From contig NC_015945.1 in the NCBI RefSeq assembly GCF_000224085.1, forward strand, positions 620,001 through 684,000: a stretch of 64,000 nt of DNA, written 5' to 3'. The DNA is from Allomuricauda ruestringensis DSM 13258 (lineage in GTDB: Bacteria > Bacteroidota > Bacteroidia > Flavobacteriales > Flavobacteriaceae). Position 1 is the first letter of the stretch. Each line of letters starts with the position of its first letter. Shown here piece by piece: positions 1 to 51,213 of the stretch. Below the pieces are notes generated by a model that saw only the letters and a program-made list of their open reading frames with translations, ran no database searches and was not told the DNA's origin. Position numbers and translations under genes: made by a program.

Positions 1-508
1 GGAACGAATCCCAGAATGAGACTACTTTGTGTTTTCCGGTTACGGCCCTTGCCAATTTTAGGGCAATTCCAATAGCAGAGCTTCCATTTGGCGTAAGCAA
101 AATACGGTCAAGGCCCTTGGGAGTATATGAGGTTAGTTTCTCAGCAAATCGAATAGCTGTTTCATTGGCATACCTCCGGGTGGAGAAGGTAAGGCTTTGC
201 AGTTGCTCTGTTAAGCGAGAAACCATTTTTGGGTGGGAAAACCCAATTTGATGTACGTTGTTCCCATGAAAATCGAGATACTTTTTTCCTGATACACTTT
301 CAATGTGCGAGCCTTCACAATTCTGGAGCACATCCAAACAAGGAGTGGACATAGATTGATGTATAAAGTACTTGGCATCTTTTTCCAATAGGTTTTTGGT
401 TTCTTCGTCCACTTCTTGCCGCAACCATTCAGCCCTGGCAGAGGTTAGATTAATGTCGCCTTCAACAACAGATTCTAAGTTGTGCTTATCGCGCTTTATA
501 CGGTCCAT
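1..508 (-). CDS. Class III PLP-dependent enzyme, PbfA-like (3' end beyond window)
   Basis: Only the first ~169 residues are present; the gene runs off the left edge. Its ATG at 506-508 lies inside the last codons of the upstream MBL gene (23 bp overlap), so it is translated as part of that operon. The N-terminus has the class III aminotransferase features: a stretch reading FIHQSMSTPCLDV near residue 50, LDFHGNNVHQIGFSHP near residue 80, and LLTPNGSSAIGIALKLAR before the cut. I recall this FHGNNVHxxGxxHP pattern from (R)-1-hydroxy-2-aminoethylphosphonate ammonia-lyase (PbfA), which makes phosphonoacetaldehyde. The nearby phosphonatase-like and FAD oxidase genes support that reading. An ordinary class III aminotransferase is the alternative, because the active-site lysine lies outside the window. 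Confidence 0.65.
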   Translation of the reverse strand, partial: MDRIKRDKHNLESVVEGDINLTSARAEWLRQEVDEETKNLLEKDAKYFIHQSMSTPCLDVLQNCEGSHIESVSGKKYLDFHGNNVHQIGFSHPKMVSRLTEQLQSLTFSTRRYANETAIRFAEKLTSYTPKGLDRILLTPNGSSAIGIALKLARAVTGKHKVVSFWDSF

Positions 509-1754
509 GTTCACTTAAAATTTTTCGTCCTTCTGTGGTGTCGTCCAGCACATAAACTTTATAGGCATCACCATTGTTGTACACCCGAATAACTATATGC
601 CCATTCTGACTTTTATAAAGATCCAACTTACCACCGATCACATCTTTTGCACCTTGCAGCATAACGGTTGAAAATATATCCCGGTCGCCAGGATATAATT
701 TGGTCGATGTTATTCTTCGCAGTACTTCTTCTCCTGGATGGTCCGCTGTCCAGTTTTGCTGAATCCAGACTCGAGGGCGAATCGTACGCACATAAAATGG
801 GTTCTGTGAGTCACGGTTCCCGTGATGATTCAACGTGGCCACATCCACGGGTCCGACAATTGGTGCAATATGGGATTCCACATCGTTAATATCGGTCTGT
901 CCAAAGCTATTGATGCCAGAAATATCCCCTCCGGTGTAATAATTAAACTTGCCATAATCAATACGGATTACGCTGCTCAACGAATTTTCCCCGGGATACT
1001 CTCCTTCTTTAAAAAGGGGATAAAACGAATCGTCGTAGCCTGTCCAAATATTCCCGTTGGAGGCTATGTTTTGAACAGAAAAGTTGGGATAATCCTTTGG
1101 ATGATTTTTTAATGTAATCTGATAGTTACTTCCTACCTGTAAAGCTTCATTTTCCAGACCAACTTTTCCTGATTGATATGCAATGAATTTCCAATATTCC
1201 TTCAAGGTTGGAATCATTCCGTAGGCGTCCTTGGAAAATCGTTCTTTAGATTGTACTTGCTCGTTGGTTAGATCAATAGGATAATCAAAACCACGGTCGA
1301 TCAATTTTTTAATCGGAATCAGTGTACCCACTTCCATAATCCCTGTAAGCTGGTATCCTCCTTTGGCAATTGAACGCAACGAATCAATCTCCCCGAAATG
1401 GTCGTCGTGGTAATGGGAGATCAATGCATAATCCAACTTGCGCTCTTGTTTTTTGGACAAGAACTGATCTATATAATCTACAATCCACTCGGGGGCAGTT
1501 TTACTCCTGTTCGGAACCAATTTGGCATTTCTGCTCGATGTTGTCCTTGGATGGGTTTCGGACATATCGCCAGCATCCACCAACATGGTCGTACCATCGG
1601 GAAATACCATAAAAGTGGCATCGCCCCTACCTGTATTGATATGGTGGATATCCAAAAATCCAGGTTGCCAATCGGGCAATTGTTTTTGCCCGTGTGAAAG
1701 TTGCACCATTAGAATAATGATGAAGAGATAAGGTCTTTTGAGGTTGAAATGCAT
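486..1754 (-). CDS. Exported metallo-beta-lactamase-fold hydrolase (ComEC/Rec2-like MBL domain)
   Basis: 422 residues. An N-terminal hydrophobic segment ending near HGQKQ looks like a signal peptide, so the protein is probably periplasmic or exported. The MBL zinc motif H-Y-H-D-D-H is at about residues 114-119, preceded by the usual LVDAGD strand (59-63), with later Asp and His candidates at YYTGGDISG and LNHHGN. The domain resembles the C-terminal MBL part of ComEC, without any membrane channel, which points to phosphoester or nucleic-acid hydrolysis rather than lactams. It starts 2 bp after the phosphodiesterase stop and overlaps the PLP enzyme downstream, so it belongs to the same operon. 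An MBL phosphodiesterase (PhnP) exists in the C-P lyase pathway, but this protein is not obviously PhnP. Substrate unknown. Confidence 0.8.
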   Translation of the reverse strand: MHFNLKRPYLFIIILMVQLSHGQKQLPDWQPGFLDIHHINTGRGDATFMVFPDGTTMLVDAGDMSETHPRTTSSRNAKLVPNRSKTAPEWIVDYIDQFLSKKQERKLDYALISHYHDDHFGEIDSLRSIAKGGYQLTGIMEVGTLIPIKKLIDRGFDYPIDLTNEQVQSKERFSKDAYGMIPTLKEYWKFIAYQSGKVGLENEALQVGSNYQITLKNHPKDYPNFSVQNIASNGNIWTGYDDSFYPLFKEGEYPGENSLSSVIRIDYGKFNYYTGGDISGINSFGQTDINDVESHIAPIVGPVDVATLNHHGNRDSQNPFYVRTIRPRVWIQQNWTADHPGEEVLRRITSTKLYPGDRDIFSTVMLQGAKDVIGGKLDLYKSQNGHIVIRVYNNGDAYKVYVLDDTTEGRKILSEHGPYKAR

Positions 1755-1756
1755 AC

Positions 1757-3427
1757 TTATTTTTCTCTATACAATTGATTTGCTGGAATGATTTGTTTTG
1801 GGGTGTCGGGACCTGAATATTTTACGTCCAGATGATAGCCCCCTCCTCCATTAAAAAACTCTATACGAACCAAATGTCTCCCCTTGGAAAGTTCAAACGC
1901 CCCGCTACGCTCCATTACACCATGGTCGCCATCGTTGTCCACGATTTCGATACCGTTAACATAAAGCTTGCTTCCATCATCACTATTGGTGAAAAAAGTA
2001 TATTTCCCTGCTTCCTGCACTTCCAAATAACTTTCAAAAGCAACAGCAACTTGCTCTTGTGGCATCGCTTCTGATAATGCCTGCTTATGTGAAAAATCAG
2101 TTACAAAACCTTCAAGAATCGGATTGAAATCAGCAAAATCAGGTAATTTCTTTATTCCGTTCACCTGATACACCCAAAATTTTACTGGATCTTGCTTTGT
2201 TTTTGACACAATTCTGAAGCTTCCTTCGGCAACAGTGCTCACCAATTGATCGTTCTGAAAGATACCTGCTTTGATAATGTTGGTCTGTTTCAAATAAAAA
2301 GTGTCCTGGTAGACTTGGCTATTTTCCAATGTTGGTACTTTGTTTCCAATGGTGTACCGAATCTGTCCCACATTATTTGGGTTTAGCATCACCACTGCAA
2401 CAGAATCCGCTTTAAAAACTCCCCCAGCTGGTTCAAAATAGCCAGCATCCGGAAGAATTTTTGGCGTGGTTATCTGCTCTTTTCGCCCATAGATCAGTTT
2501 TGGGGCTTCATTTCCTGTAAAAGCGCCTTTTACGGGTCTGCCTATCCAAGCTTGAGGTGTTTGCAAGCCCATGGCGTAGGCAACGGTAGGCGCATTATCG
2601 TATTGATACACGGTTTCTTCTATTTTGTAGCCTTTTTTGATTCCTGCACCGTACAAAATGAATGGTATTTCCATTTCAGCCAAGCTTTCCCCTCCATGAC
2701 CAAAGCCCAATCCTCCGTGATCTGCTGATACGATGAACATGGTTTTTTCAAAAATGCCTGCTTCTTTTGTGGCATCCAAAATTTTAGCAATCAGGGCGTC
2801 TGCTTTTTCCACAGACTTATAATAATCGGGAGTACCGTGGCCTTGGGCATGACCCGCGTGATCTACATGATCCAAATGCACAAAAGTGAGCGTTGGCGTA
2901 TTTTTTTTGATGTAGTCCACTGCGGCTTTGGTCGTCTTGTCCTCATGGTCCCCGTCAATATCAAAATCAACATCCTCTTTTTCGAACAAACGTCCAAAAC
3001 CATCCCAATCGTAGATGGCTCCAACATGAGCTTCTGGCTGCTGGTCTTTAAAAAGGGTGAATATGGTTGGGAATGTCCCGTTTTCGGTAACGACTACGGG
3101 TGGCAACTGATGGTCGAACTTTTCCCAACCGTTGGAGGTTACTCCGTGTTGTTCCGTATCGGCCCCCATAACCATACTGGCCCAATTGGGACTGGAGCTA
3201 GATGGAAGCACAGGCCTGGCATGCATAGTTGCCGAACCATTTTGAATCATCGTATCCAATGTCGGTGTACTTGCTTTTTGAATCCCGTTGGGACTCATTC
3301 CATCAACCCCGATGACAATAATATGTTCGATTCCTTTTGGAGTTTGCTCCTTTTTGGAAGAACAAGACCACAGGAACAGAATCCCTGTGGTCATGATCAT
3401 TGATTGTTTTGCTAATTTAAACAACAT
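1757..3427 (-). CDS. Alkaline-phosphatase-superfamily phosphodiesterase lipoprotein with PA14 domain
   Basis: 556 residues from ATG 3427, eight bases after the SusD stop. A start at 3451 is open but would overlap susD. The start chosen gives a lipoprotein signal with LWSC, Cys about 22. The catalytic domain (about 35-330) is type I phosphodiesterase/nucleotide pyrophosphatase-like: VIGVDGM metal Asp, LPSSSSPNWASM in the place of the NPP PTKTFPNH loop (so Ser instead of the usual Thr nucleophile), HLDHVDHAGHAQGHG and SADHGG metal ligands. A chitobiase-C-terminal-like beta domain follows (about 330-420; RYTIGNKVPTLENSQVY). Then comes a PA14 domain (about 430-550; FTNSDDGSKLYVNG, closing IIPANQLY). 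PA14 usually binds glycans, so the substrate may be a phospho- or phosphono-ester on a glycan or glycolipid. That is inference. Confidence 0.85.
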   Translation of the reverse strand: MLFKLAKQSMIMTTGILFLWSCSSKKEQTPKGIEHIIVIGVDGMSPNGIQKASTPTLDTMIQNGSATMHARPVLPSSSSPNWASMVMGADTEQHGVTSNGWEKFDHQLPPVVVTENGTFPTIFTLFKDQQPEAHVGAIYDWDGFGRLFEKEDVDFDIDGDHEDKTTKAAVDYIKKNTPTLTFVHLDHVDHAGHAQGHGTPDYYKSVEKADALIAKILDATKEAGIFEKTMFIVSADHGGLGFGHGGESLAEMEIPFILYGAGIKKGYKIEETVYQYDNAPTVAYAMGLQTPQAWIGRPVKGAFTGNEAPKLIYGRKEQITTPKILPDAGYFEPAGGVFKADSVAVVMLNPNNVGQIRYTIGNKVPTLENSQVYQDTFYLKQTNIIKAGIFQNDQLVSTVAEGSFRIVSKTKQDPVKFWVYQVNGIKKLPDFADFNPILEGFVTDFSHKQALSEAMPQEQVAVAFESYLEVQEAGKYTFFTNSDDGSKLYVNGIEIVDNDGDHGVMERSGAFELSKGRHLVRIEFFNGGGGYHLDVKYSGPDTPKQIIPANQLYREK

Positions 3428-3435
3428 ATAATATT

Positions 3436-4890
3436 CTAGTTTTCCCACCAAACTTTGGTGGTAATTTGATCTCCACCAATTCTGTTGGCAGCTTCGGTAT
3501 AGTTCGCGTTGTTCAAAGATTCTTCATTGCTTGGGTATTCGAACCTACTAGGGTATACATCATAGAAAGCATCCGGTCCTGGCTCAATTGTGGCAGGAAA
3601 ACCGGTTCTTTTGTACTCGATGAATCCTTGGTAATCGGTATAGAACAAGTTGATGTACTTCTGGGTCATGATGGTTTCCAAGCTATTGTCAAAAGCAACT
3701 CCTGAACTTGTTAGATAATCTGCTGGCAAATCCACGCCCCAGTATTCAAAATTGGCTGTTACCCCTTTTTCATAAAATGTTTGGGCATCGGCATTGATCC
3801 ACCCTCTTTGGGCCGCTTCTGCCAAAATAAACTGTACTTCGGAATACAGCATCAACCTTGCTTGGTTGGTATTTGGCTGAAAGTAGAAATAATCAATATT
3901 GAATTTGGAAAGGAATGCATCCCCTCCTTGGTAGGTGTATGCAGGTCCATCCACTACCCCGTTCAACATACCAACAATCTCTGGGGTACCTTGCTCAACG
4001 GAATTGGTAGTTGGATCCGCAAAGAACTCCAGCCGTGGATCTTTCAACCCTTCCAACATTGTTACAAAATGCTCGGAAATCCTGTATTCGTTATAAGATC
4101 CCACACGGTAAACGGACTCTTCGGTCACTGGGTGTGCATCTGGGTTTGCAGCCAAGAATGTAAGGGTTGCATTATCTTCATTGGATTCCATTATCGGGAA
4201 TTGACCTGGGTTGTTATAGATTTCAGCAATCACTTCAGAAGCTACCGATGGTGAAACTTCGCTTAAGCGAAGTGCCAAACGCATCCGCAGTGAATTGGCA
4301 AACTTTCTCCACATTTCCAAATCACCATCAAAGAGCAAATCCCCTTTGATTTGGGTTAAGTTGGCTCCCGACAATAGCGTGTTGGCAGTGGCAAGTTCGG
4401 CCAACATGTCGGTGTAGATTGCCTCTTGCTCATCATACATGGGCGTGTAGTTTTCCTCACTGGCTTGGTTTACCTCGGAGTAAGGAATATCTCCCCACAT
4501 ATCGGTTAATATACTGTAAGCCCAGGTCTGCATAATTTTGGAGACGGCCACATAACTCTTCAGGTCTGTCTCATTAGCCAATTCCTCCAATTCTTTGGCA
4601 TCCCTAATGGCATAGTAATAATCGTTCCATGCTCCGCCCTGATCGCCCCAATCGAACAAATCGAAAGAGGTAAATACGATTCGGGCCCCATATTGCCCCA
4701 TAAGGTTTCCTTCGCTCCAAGACCCACCTACGGCTTCCCTAATGGACCTTCTTTGAAGGTTTGTCAGGAGAAGTTCGGGGTTTTGGTTAATGTTCAAGGC
4801 AACATCAGGGTTCTCGTTGCTCACGTCAAACTTGTCACAAGACCCAAGAGTCATTGCAAGTACTGTCGCTATTAAAAATATCTTTTTCAT
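3436..4890 (-). CDS. SusD/RagB-family nutrient-binding outer-membrane lipoprotein
   Basis: 484 residues with lipobox LGSC at Cys18, typical of a surface lipoprotein that caps a SusC channel. The tetratricopeptide-like helical fold is visible as YYYAIRDAKELEELANE, IMQTWAYSILTDMWGDIPYSE and MWRKFANSLRMRLALRLSE, and the C-terminus has SEVQFILAEAAQRGW and YINLFYTDYQGFIEYKRTGFP. These match the SusD-like 2 subgroup rather than the classic RagB layout. It lies 19 bp after the SusC gene and just before the phosphodiesterase, so it should select the ligand for this operon. The neighbourhood suggests a phosphonate-bearing molecule instead of a plain polysaccharide; the sequence alone does not show this. 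Confidence 0.92.
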   Translation of the reverse strand: MKKIFLIATVLAMTLGSCDKFDVSNENPDVALNINQNPELLLTNLQRRSIREAVGGSWSEGNLMGQYGARIVFTSFDLFDWGDQGGAWNDYYYAIRDAKELEELANETDLKSYVAVSKIMQTWAYSILTDMWGDIPYSEVNQASEENYTPMYDEQEAIYTDMLAELATANTLLSGANLTQIKGDLLFDGDLEMWRKFANSLRMRLALRLSEVSPSVASEVIAEIYNNPGQFPIMESNEDNATLTFLAANPDAHPVTEESVYRVGSYNEYRISEHFVTMLEGLKDPRLEFFADPTTNSVEQGTPEIVGMLNGVVDGPAYTYQGGDAFLSKFNIDYFYFQPNTNQARLMLYSEVQFILAEAAQRGWINADAQTFYEKGVTANFEYWGVDLPADYLTSSGVAFDNSLETIMTQKYINLFYTDYQGFIEYKRTGFPATIEPGPDAFYDVYPSRFEYPSNEESLNNANYTEAANRIGGDQITTKVWWEN

Positions 4891-4909
4891 GTTATTATTG
4901 TTAACCTGA

Positions 4910-7900
4910 TTAAAATTCTACGTTGATTGCAAATCCTAAACTACGTGTTGTAGGCACAGTGGCATTTTCCACCCCTGGCACATAGCTTCCACCCCCGAAG
5001 GACAACAATTCCGGGTCTCCGTGGTTAAAATCCTTGGCCCATAGCCAAAGATTGGTTCCTATTACAGAAAAGCTGAGTTTTTTGATGTCGTCTCCCTTAA
5101 ATAATTTGGTAGGAAAATCATAGGTAAGTCTAGCCTCTCTAAGTTTAATGAAGGTAGCGTCATAAATACCCTCAGTATCATTGTCCCTTCTGTATCTGTT
5201 GTTGTGGTAAGCATTGGCAGGCACAATTACATCATTGGGCACATAGCCACCATCTTGCAATTTTACGCCATCACCAATAATACCATCGGTTTGAGTTACT
5301 CCATCGTCATTGGTATAAGAAAGTCCTGAATCCGAGATACCCGGATGTGGCCCTCCATACTCCGGCGAACGCCCCCAAAGGGTTTCTACTACGTTCCCGG
5401 ATGTTGCAGCAATCAAACGTGTTCTGGAAAGCAGCTCCCCCCCTTGTCTCCAATCAAACAAAAAGTTAAGTGAAAGATTTTTGAAGGTCACGGTGTTGTT
5501 CCATCCCAAGGTGAAGTCGGGATTAAAATTTCCGAGTTTTCTCAAGGTATTGTCCTGTTGCACCAAACCTTCGTTAAAGATTACCTGTCCGTTATATGGA
5601 CTATTCTCATCTTCTACTTTTACCAAACCAGTTCCCCACATATCACCGAGGGAACCTCCTTCTTCCGCAATAAGTGAAATTCCGTTGCCACCATATTGGT
5701 ATCTTTGCACACCATCGGCCAATTCCAGAACCCTGTTTCGGTTCAAACCAAAGTTGAAAGAAGAATTCCAATTAAAGTCCTCGTTGCGAATTGGATTAAC
5801 TCCCAACATAACTTCCAAACCTTGATTACGTATTTTACCAGCGTTAATGGTTCGTGCAGTCTTACCGGAGGTAATTGGCAAATCGATATCCAAAATTTGG
5901 TTCCTGGAAACTGTATTATAGTACGTAGCGTCCAAGGAGAGTTTATTGTTAAAGAACCTCAAATCGGTACCGAACTCGTAAGATGTCTGTATCTCTGGTT
6001 TTAAATCAAAGTTGGGCAACGTATTGGAAGGACTGGCCGTGGGATTGTCTCCTACTGGAGTTCCCAAGGCATAGAAGTCTGAAAGCCTGTAGGCATCGGT
6101 ATCACTACCAACCTGTGCCCAACCACCCCTTAGTTTGGCAAAACTAAGAACATCCTGGCTTCCGAAATCGAACAAATCGGAAAGCACCACACTCAGGGAT
6201 GCCGAGGGATAGAAATAGGAATTGTTTTGCTCCGGCAAGGTGGAGGACCAGTCGTTACGTGCCGTTAAATCCAAATAAATACTGTTGTTCCAACCCAACT
6301 GTGCAAATGCATACAAAGAATTGATTTGTTTCTCCGGACGGCTTGTGCGCTGCACCAAGGCTCCATCTACATTGGAAAAAGAGTAGATTCCTGGAATCAG
6401 CAGCTTGTTGGCCATCAAGGAGTTGAAGTGATTCTTCTGTACCATTCTGTTTCCACCAAAGTTGGCATTCACATGGAATTTATCGGTAACATTCTTATCA
6501 TAGGTCAACAAGAAATCCAAGTTGGTCTCCTGAAAATTGATTTTATCTTCCCTGTACTGACCGTTAGGGAAACGTTGGGTCGAGTAAGCTCTTTTTATGA
6601 ATCGGTATTCCGAAAAGAAATCCCGGCCACCACGCAGCATAAATTTGAAATCATTACTGATATCATAGGTTGCAGAAAGGTTTCCTATAATCCTGTCCTT
6701 GGCCAACCCATTGGTATTCTCATACATGGTAAAATATGGGTTGTCGTGGTAATTATAGTTGTAGTTGAACTGCTGGAAGCCTTCCAAACCATCTTGCCAG
6801 TAGTTTCTCAAACTATTTACATTGACCTGTTGACCCCACCAGATAAACAGATACATGACAGATTCGGTACCATATCCATTAACATGGCGGTTATCCGAGT
6901 CTGAACGGATATAATTGATTTTGGAAGACACCTTTAATCTATCTGTAATTTGATAATCCCCAGAAGCAGAAATGGTGTTTCGCTTAATGTCGGTATTGGG
7001 AACAATACCCTTGTTGTCCAAGTTGGTATAGCTCACTCTGTAGTTACCATTGTCGTTGGACCCGTAGAAAGAAACGGTATTGATCAAAGTTCTACCGGTT
7101 TCCATAAATTCTTCGGCAGGATTCCCACCGTACACAAATGGTGTAGGTGTAATGGTTCCCCTTCTATCCAAATCAACACCGGAAGACCCAAGCACATAAT
7201 CCAATCCGTGAACATCACCACCACGAAGTCCATTTGATGTTGGAGAATCGTGCTGTGCACGCAAAGTTCCATCCAACAATGGACCCCAAGATTCGTCTAC
7301 ACCATCGTAGGTTCCGCTTCCGTAACCGTCCACAAATTGAAAATCAAAATTTTTACCTTGACCATATACTCCTTGATATTCTGGAGCTTTTAGAACACTT
7401 TCAAAAGTAGTTTTGGAGCTAAAACTGATTCCGCCTTTACGACCTTTTCCAGACTTTGTTGTAATAATGACCGCCCCGTTCGCAGCCCTGGAACCGTAAA
7501 GTGCCGTTGCATTTGCACCTTTGAGTACCGAGATGGATTCCACATCATTCGGATTGATTTCGGCCGCCCCGTTACCGTAGTCCAGATTCATATTGGAAGC
7601 ACCACCCAAAGTATTGGTCCGGGTATCGGTGTTGTTATTAATTGGAATACCATCCACAATAAATAGCGGTTGGTTGTCTCCCTGCATGGAAGAGTACCCC
7701 CTGATCACCACAGATGATGATTGCCCAGGACCGCTGCCATTGGTGACCACCTGAACACCTGCTGTTCTACCTGATAATGTACTTACCGTATTAGTACTGG
7801 TCGACTGTGAAATTTCTTCACCTGCAACTTTTTGAACAGAATAGCCCAAGGATTCTTCATCCCTAGTAATGTTAAGGGCGGTTACAACAACCTCATCCAA

Positions 7901-8197
7901 TAGCTGGGAATCCTCTCGCAGCACAATGGTTGCATTACTTTTTCCAGCAGTGTCAAAATCTTGGGCAATATACCCAATGTAGGAAATCACCAAGATTTCG
8001 TTACCACCGGGCAACTCTATCTCAAAATTTCCATCAAAGTCTGTTGCAACGCCATTGGCGCTACCTTTTGCAACAACCGATGCACCGGGCAACGGAACGT
8101 TGTTTTGGTCTAATACCTTTCCTGAAAAGGTGACTTGCGAATAGCCAATTATACTTACCGTAAATGCAAGTAGAAATGCTACAATCGATTTTTTCAT
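4910..8197 (-). CDS. SusC/RagA-family TonB-dependent outer-membrane transporter
   Basis: 1095 residues and first gene of the leftward operon. Signal peptide ends near YSQ; carboxypeptidase-regulatory-like domain about 22-100 (GKVLDQNNVPLPGASVVAKG); TonB-box-like LDEVVVTAL near residue 103; plug about 115-240 with QPLFIVDGIP and SVLKGANATALYGSRAANGAVIITTK; then the 22-strand barrel ending in LGFAINVEF. It imports oligomeric or complex ligands across the outer membrane with its SusD partner using TonB energy. No ECF sigma/anti-sigma pair is nearby; control is more likely by the divergent HTH-cupin gene at 8479. Confidence 0.95.
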   Translation of the reverse strand: MKKSIVAFLLAFTVSIIGYSQVTFSGKVLDQNNVPLPGASVVAKGSANGVATDFDGNFEIELPGGNEILVISYIGYIAQDFDTAGKSNATIVLREDSQLLDEVVVTALNITRDEESLGYSVQKVAGEEISQSTSTNTVSTLSGRTAGVQVVTNGSGPGQSSSVVIRGYSSMQGDNQPLFIVDGIPINNNTDTRTNTLGGASNMNLDYGNGAAEINPNDVESISVLKGANATALYGSRAANGAVIITTKSGKGRKGGISFSSKTTFESVLKAPEYQGVYGQGKNFDFQFVDGYGSGTYDGVDESWGPLLDGTLRAQHDSPTSNGLRGGDVHGLDYVLGSSGVDLDRRGTITPTPFVYGGNPAEEFMETGRTLINTVSFYGSNDNGNYRVSYTNLDNKGIVPNTDIKRNTISASGDYQITDRLKVSSKINYIRSDSDNRHVNGYGTESVMYLFIWWGQQVNVNSLRNYWQDGLEGFQQFNYNYNYHDNPYFTMYENTNGLAKDRIIGNLSATYDISNDFKFMLRGGRDFFSEYRFIKRAYSTQRFPNGQYREDKINFQETNLDFLLTYDKNVTDKFHVNANFGGNRMVQKNHFNSLMANKLLIPGIYSFSNVDGALVQRTSRPEKQINSLYAFAQLGWNNSIYLDLTARNDWSSTLPEQNNSYFYPSASLSVVLSDLFDFGSQDVLSFAKLRGGWAQVGSDTDAYRLSDFYALGTPVGDNPTASPSNTLPNFDLKPEIQTSYEFGTDLRFFNNKLSLDATYYNTVSRNQILDIDLPITSGKTARTINAGKIRNQGLEVMLGVNPIRNEDFNWNSSFNFGLNRNRVLELADGVQRYQYGGNGISLIAEEGGSLGDMWGTGLVKVEDENSPYNGQVIFNEGLVQQDNTLRKLGNFNPDFTLGWNNTVTFKNLSLNFLFDWRQGGELLSRTRLIAATSGNVVETLWGRSPEYGGPHPGISDSGLSYTNDDGVTQTDGIIGDGVKLQDGGYVPNDVIVPANAYHNNRYRRDNDTEGIYDATFIKLREARLTYDFPTKLFKGDDIKKLSFSVIGTNLWLWAKDFNHGDPELLSFGGGSYVPGVENATVPTTRSLGFAINVEF

Positions 8198-8478
8198 TTG
8201 TTGAGTATTTGTAAAATTGGGTTAATTATTTATCAACAAATATCCAACACAAGAGTTAGGGCTAGCCTTAAAACAGATTAAAAAAATGATACGGAAAGGT
8301 TAAATGAAACAGCTTAATGTTAGGTAAACATTATTTACAAATACTCAATTTTTATAACACTCTGTCAATTTAGAATTTATAAGTATATCCTAGTGCTGTA
8401 GTGGATTAGTCATTTTTTTTAAGCATATTTACATGACGCAAAAACATTATAAATACTAAAATTTATTTCCCACCAAAA
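8198..8478. promoter_or_regulatory. Divergent promoter region between susC and the HTH-cupin regulator
   Basis: 281 bp of AT-rich DNA with no gene. On the minus strand, 30-45 bp before the susC ATG, GATATTTG is one mismatch from the Bacteroidota -7 element TAnnTTTG. Further out are AGATTAAAAAAA (8275-8286), TTAAATG (8300-8306) and AATGTTA (8316-8322). The same three words occur in the same order and orientation at 12242-12277, upstream of the converging DUF5690 operon. They are candidate operators for the neighbouring regulator. The match is in AT-rich DNA and could be chance. Confidence 0.4.
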
Positions 8479-9045
8479 ATGGAGGATTACCTGATCGGCA
8501 TTGGAAAACGAATCAAAGAAATACGCAAGAACAATAAAATGACCATTAACGATGTTGCAATCAGTGCCGGGGTTACTGCCGGGCTCATATCCCGTATTGA
8601 AAATGGCCGCACCATTCCCTCTCTTCCCGTTTTTCTAAAAATAGTGGATGCTTTGAAAACCGAAATGATTGATTTTTTTGAGGGTATTCCCAAAGCCAAC
8701 GGCCACAATTTTTTGGTGACCCGTAAAAACGAACTGTCCATTATTGAAAAGGAAGACGAAGCTGTTGGATTTACCTATAATTACATTTTTGGCAAACAAT
8801 TGAATTCGGTCGGTTTTGAGAGCGTGCTTTTGGAAGTTGAACCAAATTCCAAAAGAGAGAAGGTAGTGACAGATGCCTTTGAGTTTAAATACATCTTGAC
8901 TGGGGAATGCTATTATGAAATTGGTGACCAAGAAGTATTGCTAAAAGAGGGGGATTCCATTTTCTTTGATGGTAGAATCCCCCATGTACCTATCAACCGG
9001 GGAAAAGTTCCCTCGAAAATGTTGGTTGTATATTTTTTTATTTGA
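8479..9045 (+). CDS. XRE-family HTH regulator with C-terminal cupin domain
   Basis: 188 residues. The N-terminal HTH_3 domain is clear at about 7-65 (IGKRIKEIRKNNKMTINDVAISAGVTAGLISRIENGR is the helix-turn-helix region, followed by TIPSLPVFLKIVDAL). The C-terminal cupin at about 110-180 contains GECYYEIGDQEVLLKEGDSIFFDGRIPH. This architecture is common in regulators of amine and amino-acid catabolism, where the cupin binds the effector. The gene is divergent from susC, and its TGA directly abuts the TGA of the convergent phosphonatase-like gene (9045/9046), so it sits between the two operons it probably controls. Activator or repressor cannot be decided from the sequence. Confidence 0.9.
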   Translation: MEDYLIGIGKRIKEIRKNNKMTINDVAISAGVTAGLISRIENGRTIPSLPVFLKIVDALKTEMIDFFEGIPKANGHNFLVTRKNELSIIEKEDEAVGFTYNYIFGKQLNSVGFESVLLEVEPNSKREKVVTDAFEFKYILTGECYYEIGDQEVLLKEGDSIFFDGRIPHVPINRGKVPSKMLVVYFFI

Positions 9046-9720
9046 TCAAGGAAAGAGTACATCGGCCAAATCCGCTAGTGAATCCAATATCATGGAAGGT
9101 TCGGCAGTGGCCAATTGTTCACGTGTTTGAGCACCGGTCAACACTCCAACGGTCCAACCACAATTGGCATTTTTTCCTTCTTCAATATCAATGACCGAGT
9201 CACCTGCCTTTATCACATTCGCTGAAGCGGTAATACCAAACATGGCCATGGCCTTGTCTATCATTTCAGAAGAGGGCCTTCCGTGTACCACATCATCCGC
9301 GGTAATCAATCCATCAATCTGCTGTCCTGGAACCCAGCCCAATTTGTTTAAAAGTGATTGTGCCGTTTTTTGGTCGTAGCCAGTATTGAGAACAACTTTT
9401 ACATCTTTGTTTTTCAATAATTTAAACAATTCTTCAACACCATCATAAGAGGTCACCTCCAAATTGTTATAGGCTTCTTCCAACATATCTTTAAAATCTT
9501 TAAAGACTGAATTTGCATCTATTTCCGTTGTTTTGGTCTCTTCCAAAATATCCGCTATCGCCTTAAATTTTTCCTTGCCGGCCCCAAACCTCAATACGGT
9601 TTCCAAGGAAACCTCCACACCATGTTTAGCGAAAGCATCCCTAACGGTTTTGTACACCACATTATCCTCGTTTACCGTGGTACCTGCCATATCAAAAACG
9701 GCCAGTTGTATTTTCTTCAT
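9046..9720 (-). CDS. Phosphonatase-like HAD hydrolase (PhnX-like, TIGR03351 type)
   Basis: 224 residues. The HAD motif I is FDMAGT (nucleophile Asp10), the DxAGT form that separates phosphonoacetaldehyde hydrolases from ordinary HAD enzymes (DxDx[TV]). Before the final acidic motif the usual HAD lysine is replaced by arginine (HGRPSSEMI, Arg148), another mark of this clade. A cap-domain lysine is present in FGAGKEKFKAI (Lys49 or nearby), a candidate for the Schiff-base residue that polarises the C-P bond. The last motif is KAGDSVIDIEEG. The expected reaction is hydrolysis of phosphonoacetaldehyde or a hydroxy-derivative to an aldehyde and phosphate in the cytoplasm. Its ATG overlaps the oxidase stop (ATGA), so the two are translationally coupled. 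No PhnW transaminase is seen, as is usual for this subfamily. Confidence 0.85.
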   Translation of the reverse strand: MKKIQLAVFDMAGTTVNEDNVVYKTVRDAFAKHGVEVSLETVLRFGAGKEKFKAIADILEETKTTEIDANSVFKDFKDMLEEAYNNLEVTSYDGVEELFKLLKNKDVKVVLNTGYDQKTAQSLLNKLGWVPGQQIDGLITADDVVHGRPSSEMIDKAMAMFGITASANVIKAGDSVIDIEEGKNANCGWTVGVLTGAQTREQLATAEPSMILDSLADLADVLFP

Positions 9721-10889
9721 AAGTTAATTTTCTGCTTATTAAATATAGTGGCAATATGCTTCTTTGAGAATCCTGCGCTGCCAGTCATTCCCTTTCCCCC
9801 GATTCCAGTTACAATATGGATATTGTCATCAATGGTTTTTTGAAAAAGATCGCTGTTCTTGCATTGTGAGTAGATCCCATACCATCTTTTCTGGATTTGA
9901 TAGGTGGGCAGGTCGATTACTTTTTTAGCCTCCTCAATCATAAAGTTATCGATATCCATATCCAAGTCATACCCTAAATCTTCAATTTTGCCGGCATCGG
10001 CATATTGGTGGGAGTCTCCCAAAATTACGGAGCCATCCGCTGCTTGTTTAAAGAGGATATGCACGCCCCATTTCTTTTGGGGACTTCCCTTTGGTTCATT
10101 TTCCTTGATCTGTGAGTAGGAAGGACATTCATGGAATGCTTCGTATCTGCGGATGGACCATCCTGTTAAGATGGATCCCCTTAATTTGAAATTACCCTGC
10201 GGTTTAGTTTGCATCATCTGTAATTTGGAAACCTCAAGTTCGCTGGATGAGAACATCGCAGGATACAGGTTTTTAAAATCGCTTCCGTTACAGATAACAA
10301 CTTTACTGCCGAACACCTCTTCATCTTTCGTGCTTTGGACTGTAACATTTTCTCCTGTGGATTCACAGGAAATGACCGGGAAATCGAACTTAATGTCCAA
10401 TCCTCTTTGAGTCACCAAGTATTTCTGAAGTCTATGAATCATTGTTCTTGGCTCTACCGTAACTTCTTCAGGAAAAAAAAGCCCCGCCGTCACATAATCC
10501 GTTCGAAGTCCTGAATATTTTTCCAAACACTGGTGTCTCGTGAGCAATTGGGATTCGTAACCGTTGGAACTGTTTATGGCACCAAGCTCAACCAACAATT
10601 GTTCTTCCTCTTCATTGGAGGCCAAATATACCGTTCCATTCTGACGGATACTGATATCGAACCTAGATTGAATCCCTTTATAGATACGAAGACTTTCACG
10701 GCCGAATTGTTGCCATTTGGTATTCATGCCCGATGGAACCACTTGCCCAAAATTCTGCGTGGTCGCTCCTTTTGGATAGGCATCCTTTTCCACCAAACAA
10801 ACTTTAAGGCCCAATTCTAGGGCATGATACGCATGAAAAGTCCCTAACACACCTCCGCCTACAATGACGGCATCATATTTATTGTCCAT
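9717..10889 (-). CDS. FAD-dependent amine oxidase of the phosphonate-associated type (TIGR03364-like)
   Basis: 390 residues from the ATG at 10889. The longer open frame to 10934 would run deep into the transporter gene and delay the FAD motif. The N-terminus YDAVIVGGGVLGTFHAYHAL is the dinucleotide-binding GxGxxG fold, followed by VEKDAYPKGATTQNFGQV. The C-terminus has ITGIGGKGMTGSAGFSKKH for the FAD ribityl side. The fold is that of glycine/D-amino-acid oxidases (DAO). Members that sit beside PhnX-like hydrolases are thought to oxidise aminoethylphosphonates or their N-methyl or hydroxy forms to phosphonoacetaldehydes. Here the gene overlaps the transporter by 11 bp and the hydrolase by 4 bp, so the product would pass straight to the hydrolase. 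Exact substrate not readable. Confidence 0.85.
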   Translation of the reverse strand: MDNKYDAVIVGGGVLGTFHAYHALELGLKVCLVEKDAYPKGATTQNFGQVVPSGMNTKWQQFGRESLRIYKGIQSRFDISIRQNGTVYLASNEEEEQLLVELGAINSSNGYESQLLTRHQCLEKYSGLRTDYVTAGLFFPEEVTVEPRTMIHRLQKYLVTQRGLDIKFDFPVISCESTGENVTVQSTKDEEVFGSKVVICNGSDFKNLYPAMFSSSELEVSKLQMMQTKPQGNFKLRGSILTGWSIRRYEAFHECPSYSQIKENEPKGSPQKKWGVHILFKQAADGSVILGDSHQYADAGKIEDLGYDLDMDIDNFMIEEAKKVIDLPTYQIQKRWYGIYSQCKNSDLFQKTIDDNIHIVTGIGGKGMTGSAGFSKKHIATIFNKQKINL

Positions 10890-12159
10890 AATCCAATTCC
10901 TTGTTGAGTTGTTCAGCTTTACTGCGAGAGGCAAAGTGAGCGAATAAAATTAGTGTACTACAAATACCTATAAAAGCCACGGCGTACGTACCGTACACAA
11001 AAAAATTGAGCCAGGACAAACTGGCCTGTCCAAAGTTTTTATAAAGCAGCACCAAAACGCTGCCCACATAACCAAAGGCATCGGCAATATAAATAAGAAA
11101 ACCTGAATTTCCCTTTACCTTAAAGGTGGCAATAAAACGATCAAAAAATAGACAGTTGAACGGCACATAACAAATATAGAGTCCAAAACCAGTACAAACC
11201 ATCCATACAAAAGGGTCCAAAATCCCAACTTGAAACATTAGGGTGCTCCCCCCCAAAACCACTGTTCCCAAAATGAGAAGCACATGATAGGTAAGCAAGG
11301 CCTTAAAATTATCCTTGATGTAAAAAATGGCACCAATAATCAAGAGCACCACAATGGCAATGATAATCTCTGAAGTTGAAAATACGGAAACGTCGCCACG
11401 GTACCCGATACTGTCCCAAAGTTCACGGGCAAAGTTGTCCCTAAAATCCCGAAATGCCGTCAAAAAAGTATAAAACACTATGATGAGAAGCAAGGGGAAC
11501 AAAAACTTTTTCACCAAGTCCTTTCTGTCCCGGGCAGTCATAGGGATGCGCTCCGTTCGGTTGGCAATATCCTCTGTAGTCGGCGGGGGAACGCGTTGCA
11601 ACAAAAAAGAGCACAACAAAAGGGGAACAAAAAACAGGGCTCCTGTAACTGAAGGCATCCAAAATTCGCCAACGCCCCAAAATTGCATCACATAAAGTCC
11701 TACGGATTTCACCACACCGCTGGACACAATAAAGCTTGCAGACAACACCACGCCCAAAATATCGGTAAACCGCCTGCCCTCGATATAAGAAAAAACAATC
11801 CCCCAGATCATTCCCAAAGGAAAACCGTTAAGGAACATAAGGGGGATATTGTAGGGCGCGGGTACCCAGGCAAAAAGCACTAAAGATATCTCAGCAAAAA
11901 TAATCAGGGAAATCAAATACAGTAACCTACGGTTGGGCGTAAGCTCCGAGATAACCTTGATTCCAACAAACTTGGAAAGAGCATAGCCCAACACTTGGGC
12001 TATGACCAGCAGAATTTTGTAATCGACCCCCATAAATGCCAGTCCATCAAAAGTAGCAACGGAGAAAGGCTTTCTAAAGGCGTACATGCAAAAATAGGTG
12101 CCAAAGGCGGCCAAAGAGGCATGCAGGAGAAAGATTACGTTGGATCGTTTTTTGGACAT
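10879..12159 (-). CDS. DUF5690-family major-facilitator-like membrane transporter
   Basis: 426 residues with about 12 hydrophobic segments, mostly helices with small charged loops such as SYIEGRRFTDILGV and FRDFRDNFARELWDSIGYRG. The opening FLLHASLAAFGTYFCMYAFRKPFSVATF is the pattern I associate with DUF5690, a family with MFS-like topology and a glycerol-phosphate-permease-like first helix. It is the first gene of a three-gene leftward operon with overlapping reading frames (transporter, FAD oxidase, phosphonatase-like hydrolase). The natural inference is uptake of the aminophosphonate from the periplasm, or of a related organophosphorus compound. No transport data are visible in sequence. 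Confidence 0.75.
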   Translation of the reverse strand: MSKKRSNVIFLLHASLAAFGTYFCMYAFRKPFSVATFDGLAFMGVDYKILLVIAQVLGYALSKFVGIKVISELTPNRRLLYLISLIIFAEISLVLFAWVPAPYNIPLMFLNGFPLGMIWGIVFSYIEGRRFTDILGVVLSASFIVSSGVVKSVGLYVMQFWGVGEFWMPSVTGALFFVPLLLCSFLLQRVPPPTTEDIANRTERIPMTARDRKDLVKKFLFPLLLIIVFYTFLTAFRDFRDNFARELWDSIGYRGDVSVFSTSEIIIAIVVLLIIGAIFYIKDNFKALLTYHVLLILGTVVLGGSTLMFQVGILDPFVWMVCTGFGLYICYVPFNCLFFDRFIATFKVKGNSGFLIYIADAFGYVGSVLVLLYKNFGQASLSWLNFFVYGTYAVAFIGICSTLILFAHFASRSKAEQLNKELDYGQ

Positions 12160-12360
12160 GCAATGATGAATCGAAAAGTTTACAAATACTAAATTTGTTT
12201 TTCAAATTACTCACTTTTATTGAAAAGAACGGCTATTCCTAAGATTAAAAAAACGTTAGTTTAAATGTGCAATGTTAATCCTTAACAAATTTGAGCTTGG
12301 TCTAAACTGGAAACGGGCAAAGCATACCATCCACGCCTAAAGAAAAAAGTCAACAAAAAA
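12160..12360. promoter_or_regulatory. Upstream region of the DUF5690-oxidase-phosphonatase operon
   Basis: Non-coding, AT-rich. Contains AGATTAAAAAAA (12242-12253), TTAAATG (12261-12267) and AATGTTA (12271-12277), the same ordered set as upstream of susC (8275-8322) but with gaps about 6 bp shorter. TTTG-rich stretches near 12190-12215 on the minus strand could hold the -7 element, but no exact TAnnTTTG is seen. Confidence 0.3.
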
Positions 12361-48216: not shown

Positions 48217-51213
48217 TTAGAATGTGAAGTTGATACCCAATGTAAATGTCCTTGTTGAAGGGTATTTATCCCTCTCGTCATTACCAGGGGACAATCCATT
48301 TCTGTTCACTTCAGGGTCTATCCCCTTATACCCTGTTATAGTAGCTAGGTTTAGACCTGATGCATAAATGCGGAAGCTCTGGGCAAACTTAATGGCATCT
48401 TTTGGCAAGGTGTAGCCCAAGGTAACGTTGTCTATCTTCAAGAAATCCCCATCTTCCACATAATAACTCACAAATCGCTGCACATCTTGCAATACGGCTT
48501 TGCCGTACACCATATCGTAAGCAGAATCCAAGGTATTGTAGCTTATTGTTGGGTTTTCATAGAACATCCGAGAGAAATTCAATATCTGATAGTCCAACGC
48601 GCCTCTTAAGTTGACCATCAAATCCCAGTTCTTGTACCTTACCGTATTGTTCCAACTGTAATATGCCTTTGGCAGTCCGTTACCCAATACTTGTCTGTCA
48701 TCGTTTGTGGCTTCGGTGGCTGGAACCAAAGATCCATCCGGTCTTTCTATGACCCAAATACCGTCATCGGTAATGTCAACACTTTTTAGACCATAGAAAT
48801 TACCAATTGGCTGTCCTTCTTGCACACGGTGCGTACTAATTTGAATAGGTTCACCGGTGTAGCCTTCATCAAAGAAATCATTGGTCAACTGGAATTCATC
48901 ATTGGAAAGTGACATAATTTCGTTGGTGTTTGTAGAATATGTCAAGTTAGCGGTCCACTCAAAATTATCTGTTTGGAACGGAGTTACATTCAACAAAAAT
49001 TCTACACCGGTATTCTTGATTTGTGCAACGTTGGCGGCAATGGTACCGAAAAAGTATGGAGGTGTTGGCACACTATAATTGAACAAAGCATCCTTTGTAG
49101 TTCTGTTATAATAATCAACAGATCCATTGATTCGTCCATCAAGAACACCAAAATCCAATCCCAGGTTAAACTCTTCCTTTTTCTCCCAACGTAAATTTGT
49201 ATTGGCATTACGTGAAGGTATCAGTTGCCTTACCCATTGTCCGTTATTCAAGAAATAATCTCCGTAGGTAAGTCCGCTCAATGATTGATAATTGGAACCT
49301 GCATTGATTCCGGTAACCCCAAAACCAGTCCTTAACTTTAGGTTGGAAAGCCAATCCCAGTTTTCTGCAAAGGATTCTTGGTTTACACGCCATCCCACTG
49401 AAACACCTGGAAAATTACCCCATTTATAATCCTCACCAAATCGAGAGGAACCTTCACGGCGCAAACTTGCCATTAACAAATAGCGATCATCATAATTATA
49501 AGTGACCCTAGAGAAGAACGCAATCAATTTATCAGAATTCTTGTAGCTGCCCATTCCGGCCTCACCCAATTGAAGTCCTTGTCCGCTACCAAGGTTGTTA
49601 TAAGTAAAGCCATCTGTTGGAAAACGGCGGTTTGTGGCCCAAAAGCCTTCGTTGGTATTATCTTCATAGTTGTAACCTACCAAACCTGTTACTTTGTGTT
49701 TTCCGAAACTATTGTCGTAATCCACGGTAAACTGGCCATAATTGCCTACATAATCATCCGTTCCCCTAGAAGCAAATCCCTCTTGTCCGTTTTTTGTGGT
49801 AGAAACATGATCCTTGGTTTGGTAAAACCCTCTAATATTTGAATTTCCTTTACGGGTATATAATCCCTTAACGGTAACATGATCTCCAAAATCATAACTC
49901 AAGGAAAAGTCGAATCTGGTGTTTCTATACCTGTTTTGGCCTATGGTTTCTTCAATATAGGCAACAGGGTTATCGTAGAAATATACATCCCTTTCGTACC
50001 AGCTTCCATCTTCATTGTATACTGGCTCAGTAGGATTCCTAATAATAGCCTGTCTGTATATGTATGGATTAAAGCTAACCCCATCACCCAAAGCATTATA
50101 TGTTTGTTCGCTTAAAATCACCCCAACATTGGCCTTTAAACGATTATCGAACATCGCGTGGTTTACACTTACTCTGGCTGTGTGTTTTTTATTGTCCGAT
50201 TTCTGAAAAATACCTTCTATATCTCGATAGTTCAATGAAGCTGTCATATTGGAAGTTGAGTTCCCTCCCCTGAAAATAAGGTTGTGTACTTGGCTAAAGG
50301 CATCTCTGGTAATTTGATCTACCCAATCTGTATTTGCGCCAAAATCCTGTAGGTTGGCCCCATTAAAGGTGTATCCCTCTTCAAATTTCTGTCTTAGTTC
50401 TCCTGCATCCAAAAAGTTCATTCGGTTGGCTATGGTAGAAAGTGAAGCATACCCATTGTATTCAATGGTTGATTTCATATCATTTGTTCCTTTCTTTGTT
50501 GTGATGATGATCACACCATTGGTGCCCCGGGTACCATATATTGCCGTAGCGGAACCGTCCTTAAGCACATCAATGGATTCGATATCCTCGGGTGCCACGG
50601 TATTTAAACTCCCAGGAACCCCATCGACCAAAACCAAGGGGTTGGTTCCACCCAAAATTGAAGATGTACCCCTTAAATTAATCTGTGTGCCTTCGGTCGG
50701 GTCGCCCGAGGGGGCCGATACCGACAGACCTGCAACTTTACCCTGAATAAGCTGTGCGGCATCCTTTACGTTACCCTGCACAAAATCCTCCGATTTTACC
50801 GTTGCCACCGAACTGGTTACATCGGCACGTTTTTGGGTACCGTAACCTATTACCACTACTTCGGAAAGCTGCTGGAGGTCTTCCTTCAGTACCACATTTA
50901 TAGTAGATTTTCCTTGTACCGGTATTTCCTGGCTTAAAAAACCTAAATAGGAAAACACCAATACCGCATCGGATTGCGAGGTGGTAATTTCATAATTTCC
51001 ATCAAAATCGCTGGCAGTACCATTGGTGGTATTCTTTTCCAATACCGATACACCTGCAATAGGTATCCCCTGCTCATCTGTGATGCTACCCGTAACCGTC
51101 TGTTGGGAAAACCCAGCTTGCGCCATGAAAACGCAGAGCAAGGACAAAACAATTTGTTTTTTTAAACGATTGGTTCCCAGACATTCTTTAAATAAAAAGC
51201 TAGCCAATTTCAT
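48217..51213 (-). CDS. SusC/RagA-family TonB-dependent outer-membrane transporter
   Basis: 998 residues. A long N-terminus (KLASFLFKECLGTNRLKKQ) precedes the signal helix ending AGFSQQ, a form often seen in flavobacterial SusC proteins. Carboxypeptidase-regulatory-like domain about 40-115 (GSITDEQGIPIAGVSVLEKN). TonB-box-like LSEVVVIGYGTQ; plug with NPLVLVDGVPGSL and SIDVLKDGSATAIYGTRGTNGVIIITTKKG; barrel ending FTLGINFTF. First gene of the two-gene susCD operon, with a long 5' region. Different in sequence from the first SusC (1095 residues) so probably a different ligand. Confidence 0.95.
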   Translation of the reverse strand: MKLASFLFKECLGTNRLKKQIVLSLLCVFMAQAGFSQQTVTGSITDEQGIPIAGVSVLEKNTTNGTASDFDGNYEITTSQSDAVLVFSYLGFLSQEIPVQGKSTINVVLKEDLQQLSEVVVIGYGTQKRADVTSSVATVKSEDFVQGNVKDAAQLIQGKVAGLSVSAPSGDPTEGTQINLRGTSSILGGTNPLVLVDGVPGSLNTVAPEDIESIDVLKDGSATAIYGTRGTNGVIIITTKKGTNDMKSTIEYNGYASLSTIANRMNFLDAGELRQKFEEGYTFNGANLQDFGANTDWVDQITRDAFSQVHNLIFRGGNSTSNMTASLNYRDIEGIFQKSDNKKHTARVSVNHAMFDNRLKANVGVILSEQTYNALGDGVSFNPYIYRQAIIRNPTEPVYNEDGSWYERDVYFYDNPVAYIEETIGQNRYRNTRFDFSLSYDFGDHVTVKGLYTRKGNSNIRGFYQTKDHVSTTKNGQEGFASRGTDDYVGNYGQFTVDYDNSFGKHKVTGLVGYNYEDNTNEGFWATNRRFPTDGFTYNNLGSGQGLQLGEAGMGSYKNSDKLIAFFSRVTYNYDDRYLLMASLRREGSSRFGEDYKWGNFPGVSVGWRVNQESFAENWDWLSNLKLRTGFGVTGINAGSNYQSLSGLTYGDYFLNNGQWVRQLIPSRNANTNLRWEKKEEFNLGLDFGVLDGRINGSVDYYNRTTKDALFNYSVPTPPYFFGTIAANVAQIKNTGVEFLLNVTPFQTDNFEWTANLTYSTNTNEIMSLSNDEFQLTNDFFDEGYTGEPIQISTHRVQEGQPIGNFYGLKSVDITDDGIWVIERPDGSLVPATEATNDDRQVLGNGLPKAYYSWNNTVRYKNWDLMVNLRGALDYQILNFSRMFYENPTISYNTLDSAYDMVYGKAVLQDVQRFVSYYVEDGDFLKIDNVTLGYTLPKDAIKFAQSFRIYASGLNLATITGYKGIDPEVNRNGLSPGNDERDKYPSTRTFTLGINFTF

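Follow-up and report, generated by a model that had tools for sequence, protein, structure and literature searches.

A probable aminophosphonate utilization locus with its own SusCD import genes in Allomuricauda ruestringensis

We analyzed a 64,000-nucleotide stretch of Allomuricauda ruestringensis DSM 13258 (contig NC_015945.1, positions 620,001 to 684,000; hereafter the window). Its first 12 kb consist of two minus-strand operons with a single plus-strand regulator gene between them, and there is good reason to regard these genes as a locus for aminophosphonate utilization that includes a dedicated pore for import through the outer membrane. The left operon encodes, in order, a SusC/RagA TonB-dependent outer-membrane transporter (4910..8197; 660.5 bits on TIGR04056, cut-off 368.25), a SusD-like lipoprotein (3436..4890; PF12771, SusD-like_2), an NPP-family phosphodiesterase (PDE) lipoprotein with PA14 at its C-terminus (1757..3451; PF01663), an exported metallo-β-lactamase (MBL)-like hydrolase (486..1754; Pfam Lactamase_B and a profile comparison with solved structures), a class III pyridoxal phosphate (PLP) enzyme of PbfA type (window part 2..514) and, beyond the window edge, a purple-acid-phosphatase-like exported protein. 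The complete PLP enzyme has 458 aa, and its gene extends past the window to genome position C1:619138.

The right operon, also on the minus strand, starts with a DUF5690 membrane protein of the major facilitator superfamily (MFS) type (10879..12159), presumed to be an inner-membrane importer, and continues with a DAO-type FAD oxidoreductase of the PbfD type (9717..10934, likely start 10886; TIGR03364) and a PhnX-like HAD hydrolase (9046..9720; TIGR03351). The plus-strand gene encodes a helix-turn-helix (HTH)-cupin, PuuR-like regulator (8479..9045), the presumed operator binder, and is divergent from susC and convergent with the HAD gene. Family searches recovered every gene named in an initial annotation of this DNA (HAD, DAO, PLP, HTH-cupin, SusC, SusD, PDE-PA14 and MBL), as well as the overlap it had noted between the DAO and HAD reading frames, which is 4 bp. 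Two of its descriptions need correction: the operons are not facing, since both lie on the minus strand and only the regulator on the plus strand, and the PLP gene, which had been grouped with the catabolic genes, is actually part of the SusCD operon.

Three enzyme families point toward aminophosphonates. The complete PLP enzyme, earlier described as PbfA-like, scores 714.1 bits on the PbfA model NF049939 (cut-off 525), covering model positions 2-440 of 442. The DAO scores 406.8 bits on TIGR03364 (cut-off 285.1), and we link it to the PbfD type because Acinetobacter baumannii PbfD1, shown to make phosphonoacetaldehyde, carries the TIGR03364 annotation (PMC10590968). The HAD protein passes TIGR03351 narrowly (222.3 bits, cut-off 218.9). 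It has the DxAGT motif, as DMAGT, and the arginine substitution (GRP) that had been pointed out before. Its residues D10, cap K49, R148, D174 and D178 are conserved, and the nucleophile Asp, DxAGT, K49, the GRP arginine and the acidic pair are invariant in 12 of 12 aligned sequences. All 115 distinct HAD proteins mapped keep the lysine, within a stretch that is GAGKEK in 112 of them and AAGKEK in three. In alignments to solved PhnX structures (2iof and others), K49 falls on the cap lysine, at low alignment confidence in that region; this lysine is the Schiff-base former in phosphonoacetaldehyde hydrolase.

On the true phosphonatase model TIGR01422 the HAD protein reaches 109.5 bits, below the cut-off of 220, as might be seen for a conventional phosphatase in a locus that leaves C-P bonds intact. 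We consider this very improbable given the conserved DxAGT motif, cap lysine and GRP arginine, and given a partner oxidase of the same TIGR03364 kind as PbfD1 (PMC10590968). In the predicted route, hydroxy-2-aminoethylphosphonate (hydroxy-AEP), AEP and N-methyl-AEP are converted to phosphonoacetaldehyde and then to phosphate. PbfA would convert hydroxy-AEP to phosphonoacetaldehyde, a reaction described in PMC8154272 and PMC12366243. The PbfD-type oxidase could form the same product from AEP or N-methyl-AEP, as PbfC and PbfD enzymes convert N-methyl-AEP to phosphonoacetaldehyde and PbfD2 oxidizes AEP too (PMC10590968). The PhnX-like HAD would then release acetaldehyde and phosphate. No PhnW match over the TIGR02326 cut-off was found in the A. 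ruestringensis genome (TIGR03301 was not tried), which resembles the situation in Mariniblastus fucicola, in whose cluster PbfD2 is proposed to take the part of PhnW (PMC10590968). No phosphonate biosynthesis genes were seen among the locus genes examined, although no search was aimed at them. The earlier assignment of these families to phosphonate catabolism holds, as judged from family models and retained catalytic residues.

The arrangement of the locus is strongly conserved. We collected 36 neighborhoods and seven further stretches from the genus, with two loci each split into two ends (L059 and L106; L068 and L107; loci are labeled L), yielding 39 complete loci, or 40 with that of A. ruestringensis. 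All 40 have the same order and strands, MFS-DAO-HAD / regulator / SusC-SusD-PDE-(MBL)-PbfA-(phosphatase). Of 60 genomes of the genus, A. ruestringensis included, 37 contain PbfA, and DAO exceeds its cut-off in 41 of 71. Among 299 family genomes, DAO occurs in 22, PbfA in 21 and both in 15, again counting our own; in these 15 the two genes are always on the same contig, within ~11 kb. DAO occurs alone in seven genomes and PbfA alone in six. The initial annotation would have been refuted by a separation of the SusCD-PDE genes from the catabolic genes throughout the relatives. Instead, they are found together, in every complete genus locus and in 13 of the 14 other family genomes having both DAO and PbfA, if one includes a locus whose SusC extends off the fetched stretch (L093) and another whose PDE frame contains a stop (L079). 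Since the gene order is kept across one genus and several genera, this is more than a chance neighborhood. We also rejected chance from the content of the A. ruestringensis genome, as its 23 SusC genes in 3.84 Mb (a second one lies at window 48220-51102) give at most ~12% per 20 kb stretch.

More distant relatives were surveyed in a sample of 80 of at least 554 confirmed loci, with names including Flagellimonas/Allomuricauda/Muricauda, Flavobacterium, Aquimarina, Maribacter, Zobellia, Tenacibaculum and Echinicola, among others. Outside the genus there are 57 named loci. SusCD is found in 19 of them, another TonB receptor in 22 and one or the other in 39; PDE is found in 13 and PbfA in 14. A different phosphodiesterase (~26% identity) lies between the HAD and regulator genes in several Tenacibaculum, Aquimarina and Flavobacterium loci (L146, L135 and others), and the L146 variant carries hemopexin repeats.

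The survey also yielded observations that weigh against the aminophosphonate reading. MBL is missing from 12 of the 40 complete genus loci and the phosphatase from five. One genus locus (L067) lacks the DAO between MFS and HAD, with the rest kept except for the phosphatase. In L077, PbfA and the core are kept, while PDE is lost and susCD is a remnant. In 18 of the 57 named loci outside the genus, our searches detected neither a full SusCD nor a SusD-less receptor; a few of these loci are cut by contig ends. Separately, we noted that L077 and L164 (Ulvibacterium) are apparently one contig, with short susCD remnants between the regulator and PbfA and no PDE.

Joint control is suggested by a shared operator. 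The operator is a palindrome, tTTTACtAATAGTAAAa, derived solely from 74 non-redundant sequences that precede the regulator gene. It is above the 99% shuffle level in 37 of these 74 training regions; when applied to 84 non-redundant sequences in front of the MFS gene, it reaches that level in 59. In the whole window the model has only three matches of at least 13 bits, all at the two promoters: adjoining the susC start (8200..8216), in the susC/regulator intergenic region (8333..8349), and upstream of the MFS-DAO-HAD operon (12178..12194). In relatives, 40 of 49 distinct receptor genes have the operator within 300 bp upstream, versus 13 of 223 control open reading frames, a comparison for which duplicate contigs were removed from the receptor genes and not from the controls. 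Eleven of the 49 adjoin the regulator and have sequence in common with the training set; 10 of these have a site. The remaining, held-out receptor genes carry a site in 30 of 38 cases, comprising 22 of 22 SusD-less TonB receptors and 8 of 16 SusC-type genes. The SusD-less receptor with operator is seen in Tenacibaculum, Flavobacterium and one Aquimarina locus. With a stricter pattern, the A. ruestringensis genome has two exact matches, which fall between susC and the regulator gene, and the MFS site has one mismatch; there are five other one-mismatch copies, and the reversed control pattern gives five matches in all. The operator-like copy at C1:2300662, one of the five other one-mismatch copies, is inside a coding gene and was set aside as chance.

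Certain operator results count against a regulon so defined. Half of the 16 held-out SusC-type genes are without a site, six of these being extra SusC copies; two locus SusC genes fall just under threshold, with 12.4 bits in L162 and 12.2 in L073, and the regulator-adjacent receptor gene of L183, at 10.1 bits, is without a site. In L096, a strong copy precedes phnA (L096:13651), and no such regulator was found there at E 1e-30. Moreover, many receptor loci are closely related, and the operator counts are not independent, so that a p-value calculated from them is too favorable. Nevertheless, the conserved neighborhood and the shared operator make it very likely that SusCD belongs to the aminophosphonate system and is regulated together with it. 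In this model, a single palindromic operator would give the HTH-cupin regulator control of the two operons and of the receptor. The locus is real and conserved, and very likely a jointly controlled unit with SusCD import.

The exported hydrolases give some indication of what may be imported. The PDE scores 104.2 bits on PF01663 (cut-off 23). Its residues D50, D197, H201, D244 and H245 align with metal ligands, and S86 stands where the threonine nucleophile is expected, roles that we presume from the family. Both the PDE profile and the PDE structural model (mean pLDDT 77.9) have NPP phosphodiesterases as their best matches. The profile search against solved structures also returned sulfatases and a phosphonate monoester hydrolase (4upk), and the model search returned ENPP7 with phosphocholine at rank 44. 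Less favorably, TM-scores normalized by the query are low, 0.35-0.40 among the 50 matches listed, because only part of the PDE model is common to the matches. The PA14 part matches solved PA14 proteins. The MBL protein scores 21.7 on Pfam Lactamase_B, slightly below the cut-off of 22.7, and its profile has three matches with E<1e-5 among solved structures, all pneumococcal phosphorylcholine esterase Pce/CbpE. This best solved relative, with the HxHxDH region aligned, is a weak match (E 1.4e-6 by profile).

The hydrolases had been placed at the surface or in the periplasm. Surface lipoproteins typically carry an acidic export signal after the lipobox. The PDE sequence at this point is CSSKKEQ, without such a signal, and the MBL and phosphatase N-termini are plain signal peptides. 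These sequences do not point to a surface site for any of the hydrolases, and we infer a periplasmic location.

Could the SusCD operon instead serve phosphate esters? The exported hydrolases, which belong to phosphodiesterase and phosphatase families, would then release phosphoethanolamine or phosphate from lipids or glycans, the PLP enzyme would be an ethanolamine-phosphate phospho-lyase (ETNPPL; 6tor), which is a class III PLP relative, and the phosphonate operon would merely be a neighbor in a common phosphorus regulon. Flavobacterium PUS loci do target organic phosphate (PMC8115612). PDE relatives, moreover, are not confined to phosphonate loci, as judged from those located away from phosphonate genes. 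The 299 genomes contain 20 places with a long PDE (19 spanning PA14). Sixteen are beside a PbfA-type gene and one (L199) is beside MFS, another DAO, HAD and regulator genes; three, one of them adjoining a GH92 mannosidase, are without phosphonate genes, which counts against the aminophosphonate reading, as do the shorter PDE-domain places, of which 12 of 14 are away from PbfA and DAO and two beside PbfA.

We nonetheless consider the phosphate-ester explanation improbable. The PLP enzyme far exceeds the PbfA cut-off and ETNPPL is absent from its best solved relatives, and the SusCD and DAO-HAD operons have a common operator. The L096 locus, which has PbfA without DAO, is informative here: SusCD and a PDE-PbfA pair adjoin PhnA, PhnY and PhnW, each over a curated cut-off (PhnW passes TIGR03301 and fails TIGR02326). 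The PDE of this locus is without PA14, its MFS protein has a PgtP-type family as best match, below the cut-off, and a Laminin-G domain protein follows SusD.

Another possibility is that SusCD imports free small aminophosphonates and that the exported hydrolases act on other phosphorus compounds or trim substituents. Four loci (L075, L131, L140 and L143) would suit this, as they combine SusCD with MFS-DAO-HAD and retain the operator, and neither PDE nor PbfA was detected in the stretches concerned. AEP, however, should pass porins by virtue of its size. SusCD and PDE also go together in PbfA-bearing loci, and the Laminin-G protein of L096 and the GH92 mannosidases next to a copy of PbfA (L094) and of PDE (L201) hint at glycans. 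Import of free aminophosphonates thus seems unlikely to us, though less so than a phosphate-ester system. In L094, two PbfA-type genes flank one SusCD-PDE-MBL-phosphatase operon accompanied by ECF sigma and FecR genes and a GH92 mannosidase.

The SusCD pair could also be a polysaccharide transporter that is here by accident, as published for a Maribacter forsetii pair. PMC11345257 assigns P177_RS04595/04600 to laminarin because its SusC is the one most raised there versus the control. The pair is expressed on glucose as well, and the neighbors listed there are an alkaline phosphatase, an FAD oxidoreductase and a phosphonatase-like hydrolase, with no CAZyme (carbohydrate-active enzyme) in the same direction (PMC11345257). 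Maribacter loci from three species (L143, L169 and L171) hold a SusCD pair in the same locus type. In A. ruestringensis, Pfam and NCBIfam gave no CAZyme catalytic domain in the nine window genes or the full PLP and phosphatase genes. We therefore give the polysaccharide explanation hardly any credence. Because the listed neighbors and expression on glucose fit an aminophosphonate locus better, the M. forsetii pair probably belongs to the aminophosphonate locus type rather than to laminarin.

The receptor genes are the variable part of an otherwise constant locus. Single-linkage clustering at 65% divides the 40 SusC proteins of the genus into three types with 20, 18 and 2 members, while their neighbors stay similar. 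Between L053 and L054, identity is 98% for PDE and 99% for both PbfA and MFS, but 51% for SusC and 37% for SusD; DNA identity drops ~300 bp into susC and recovers at the PDE start. The same exchange of a susC-susD block between near-identical flanks is seen for L043 and L047. Given near-identical flanks around diverged SusC and SusD, the receptor blocks look to have been swapped by recombination, with the regulator and enzymes held constant, as far as the alignments indicate. This is reminiscent of ragAB allele exchange in Porphyromonas gingivalis, in which a SusCD pair is likewise replaced as a block at a conserved place. Unlike ragAB, the susCD exchange described here is inside a metabolic locus. 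Exchange of a susCD cassette in a fixed regulon offers a clean case for studying the drivers of surface receptor variation.

Components of this system have been described elsewhere. PbfA/PbfD/PhnX clusters contain the same enzyme families (PMC8154272, PMC10590968), and the lack of a PhnW match is shared with M. fucicola. In contrast to those clusters, outer-membrane import, exported hydrolases, a DUF5690 MFS protein and an HTH-cupin regulator are attached here. The words Bacteroidetes, TonB and SusC do not occur in the main texts of the two papers. The Flavobacterium PUS/PusCD clusters likewise have a SusCD pair with phosphodiesterases or phosphatases in place of CAZymes (PMC8115612). They are inducible by low phosphate, as described in that text, whereas a dedicated HTH-cupin regulator and operator are present here, and the A. 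ruestringensis cluster, unlike the available description of PusCD, has a complete predicted hydroxy-AEP/AEP route. Polysaccharide utilization loci (PULs) share the SusC-SusD pair, exported enzymes, operon layout and local regulator; the locus described here differs from them in having no CAZyme catalytic domain, its enzymes being those predicted for phosphorus esters and C-P bonds.

PusCD clusters were said to contain phosphonate-degrading enzymes in 2020 (PMC8115612). The general idea of SusCD with such enzymes is therefore already known, and the suggestion in the initial annotation that a PUL-like system for phosphonates would be new does not stand in that form. What is apparently new is the shared operator, the susCD cassette exchange within a constant locus, and the likely reassignment of the Maribacter laminarin SusCD. 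In a search that covered titles and abstract starts of open-licence papers, none of the top matches describes a locus of this type in detail, its operator or an exchange of its receptors. The passages of PMC7029141 and PMC9381506 considered here have no bearing on the question.

We suggest the following model. An AEP, N-methyl-AEP or hydroxy-AEP ester or conjugate would be bound by SusD and SusC and taken in through the outer membrane. In the periplasm, the NPP-type PDE-PA14, the Pce-like MBL and the purple-acid-phosphatase-like enzyme, to go by their relatives, could free the phosphonate head group, which the DUF5690 protein may move across the inner membrane for degradation. In an hhalign comparison with 11 E. 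coli MFS-type proteins, UhpT and GlpT came out on top for DUF5690, although the E values of 0.005-0.014 are weak and count against leaning on this step; in the same weak alignment, R29 is matched to the RKNF-motif arginine. The DUF5690 profile had no useful match among solved structures. AepP, a known AEP permease, is related to GlpT (PMC8316502).

SusCD uptake of bound phosphonate had been proposed from the outset. The neighborhood and operator uphold the link of SusCD and PDE to catabolism, and we infer that the cargo is likely a bound phosphonate, such as an ester attached to a glycan or lipid. A large share of biogenic AEP occurs in glycan- and lipid-linked form. AEP has been described on microalgal N-glycans, and putatively on Euglena high-mannose glycans (PMC12507850, PMC8678454), and the GH92 and Laminin-G neighbors together with these papers fit a mannose-type AEP glycan as a possible substrate. 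A fuller version of the model is attractive, though we put it forward tentatively: a PUL-like phosphonate utilization locus for macromolecules that carry phosphonate. SusCD would import glycans or lipids with (hydroxy-)AEP attached, among them perhaps algal, protist or invertebrate glycans whose mannose bears AEP; dedicated NPP-PA14 and Pce-like esterases would release the head group, and cleavage of the C-P bond would follow inside the cell. An exchangeable receptor module, consisting of SusCD alleles (37% SusD identity) or SusD-less TonB receptors, would be swapped into a constant regulon that the palindromic operator marks. A SusCD-coupled locus of this kind in common marine flavobacteria represents a testable route to bound phosphonate. 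If the model is true, some of the SusCD pairs that are currently interpreted as polysaccharide transporters, and used as markers of glycan use, would move to phosphonate uptake.

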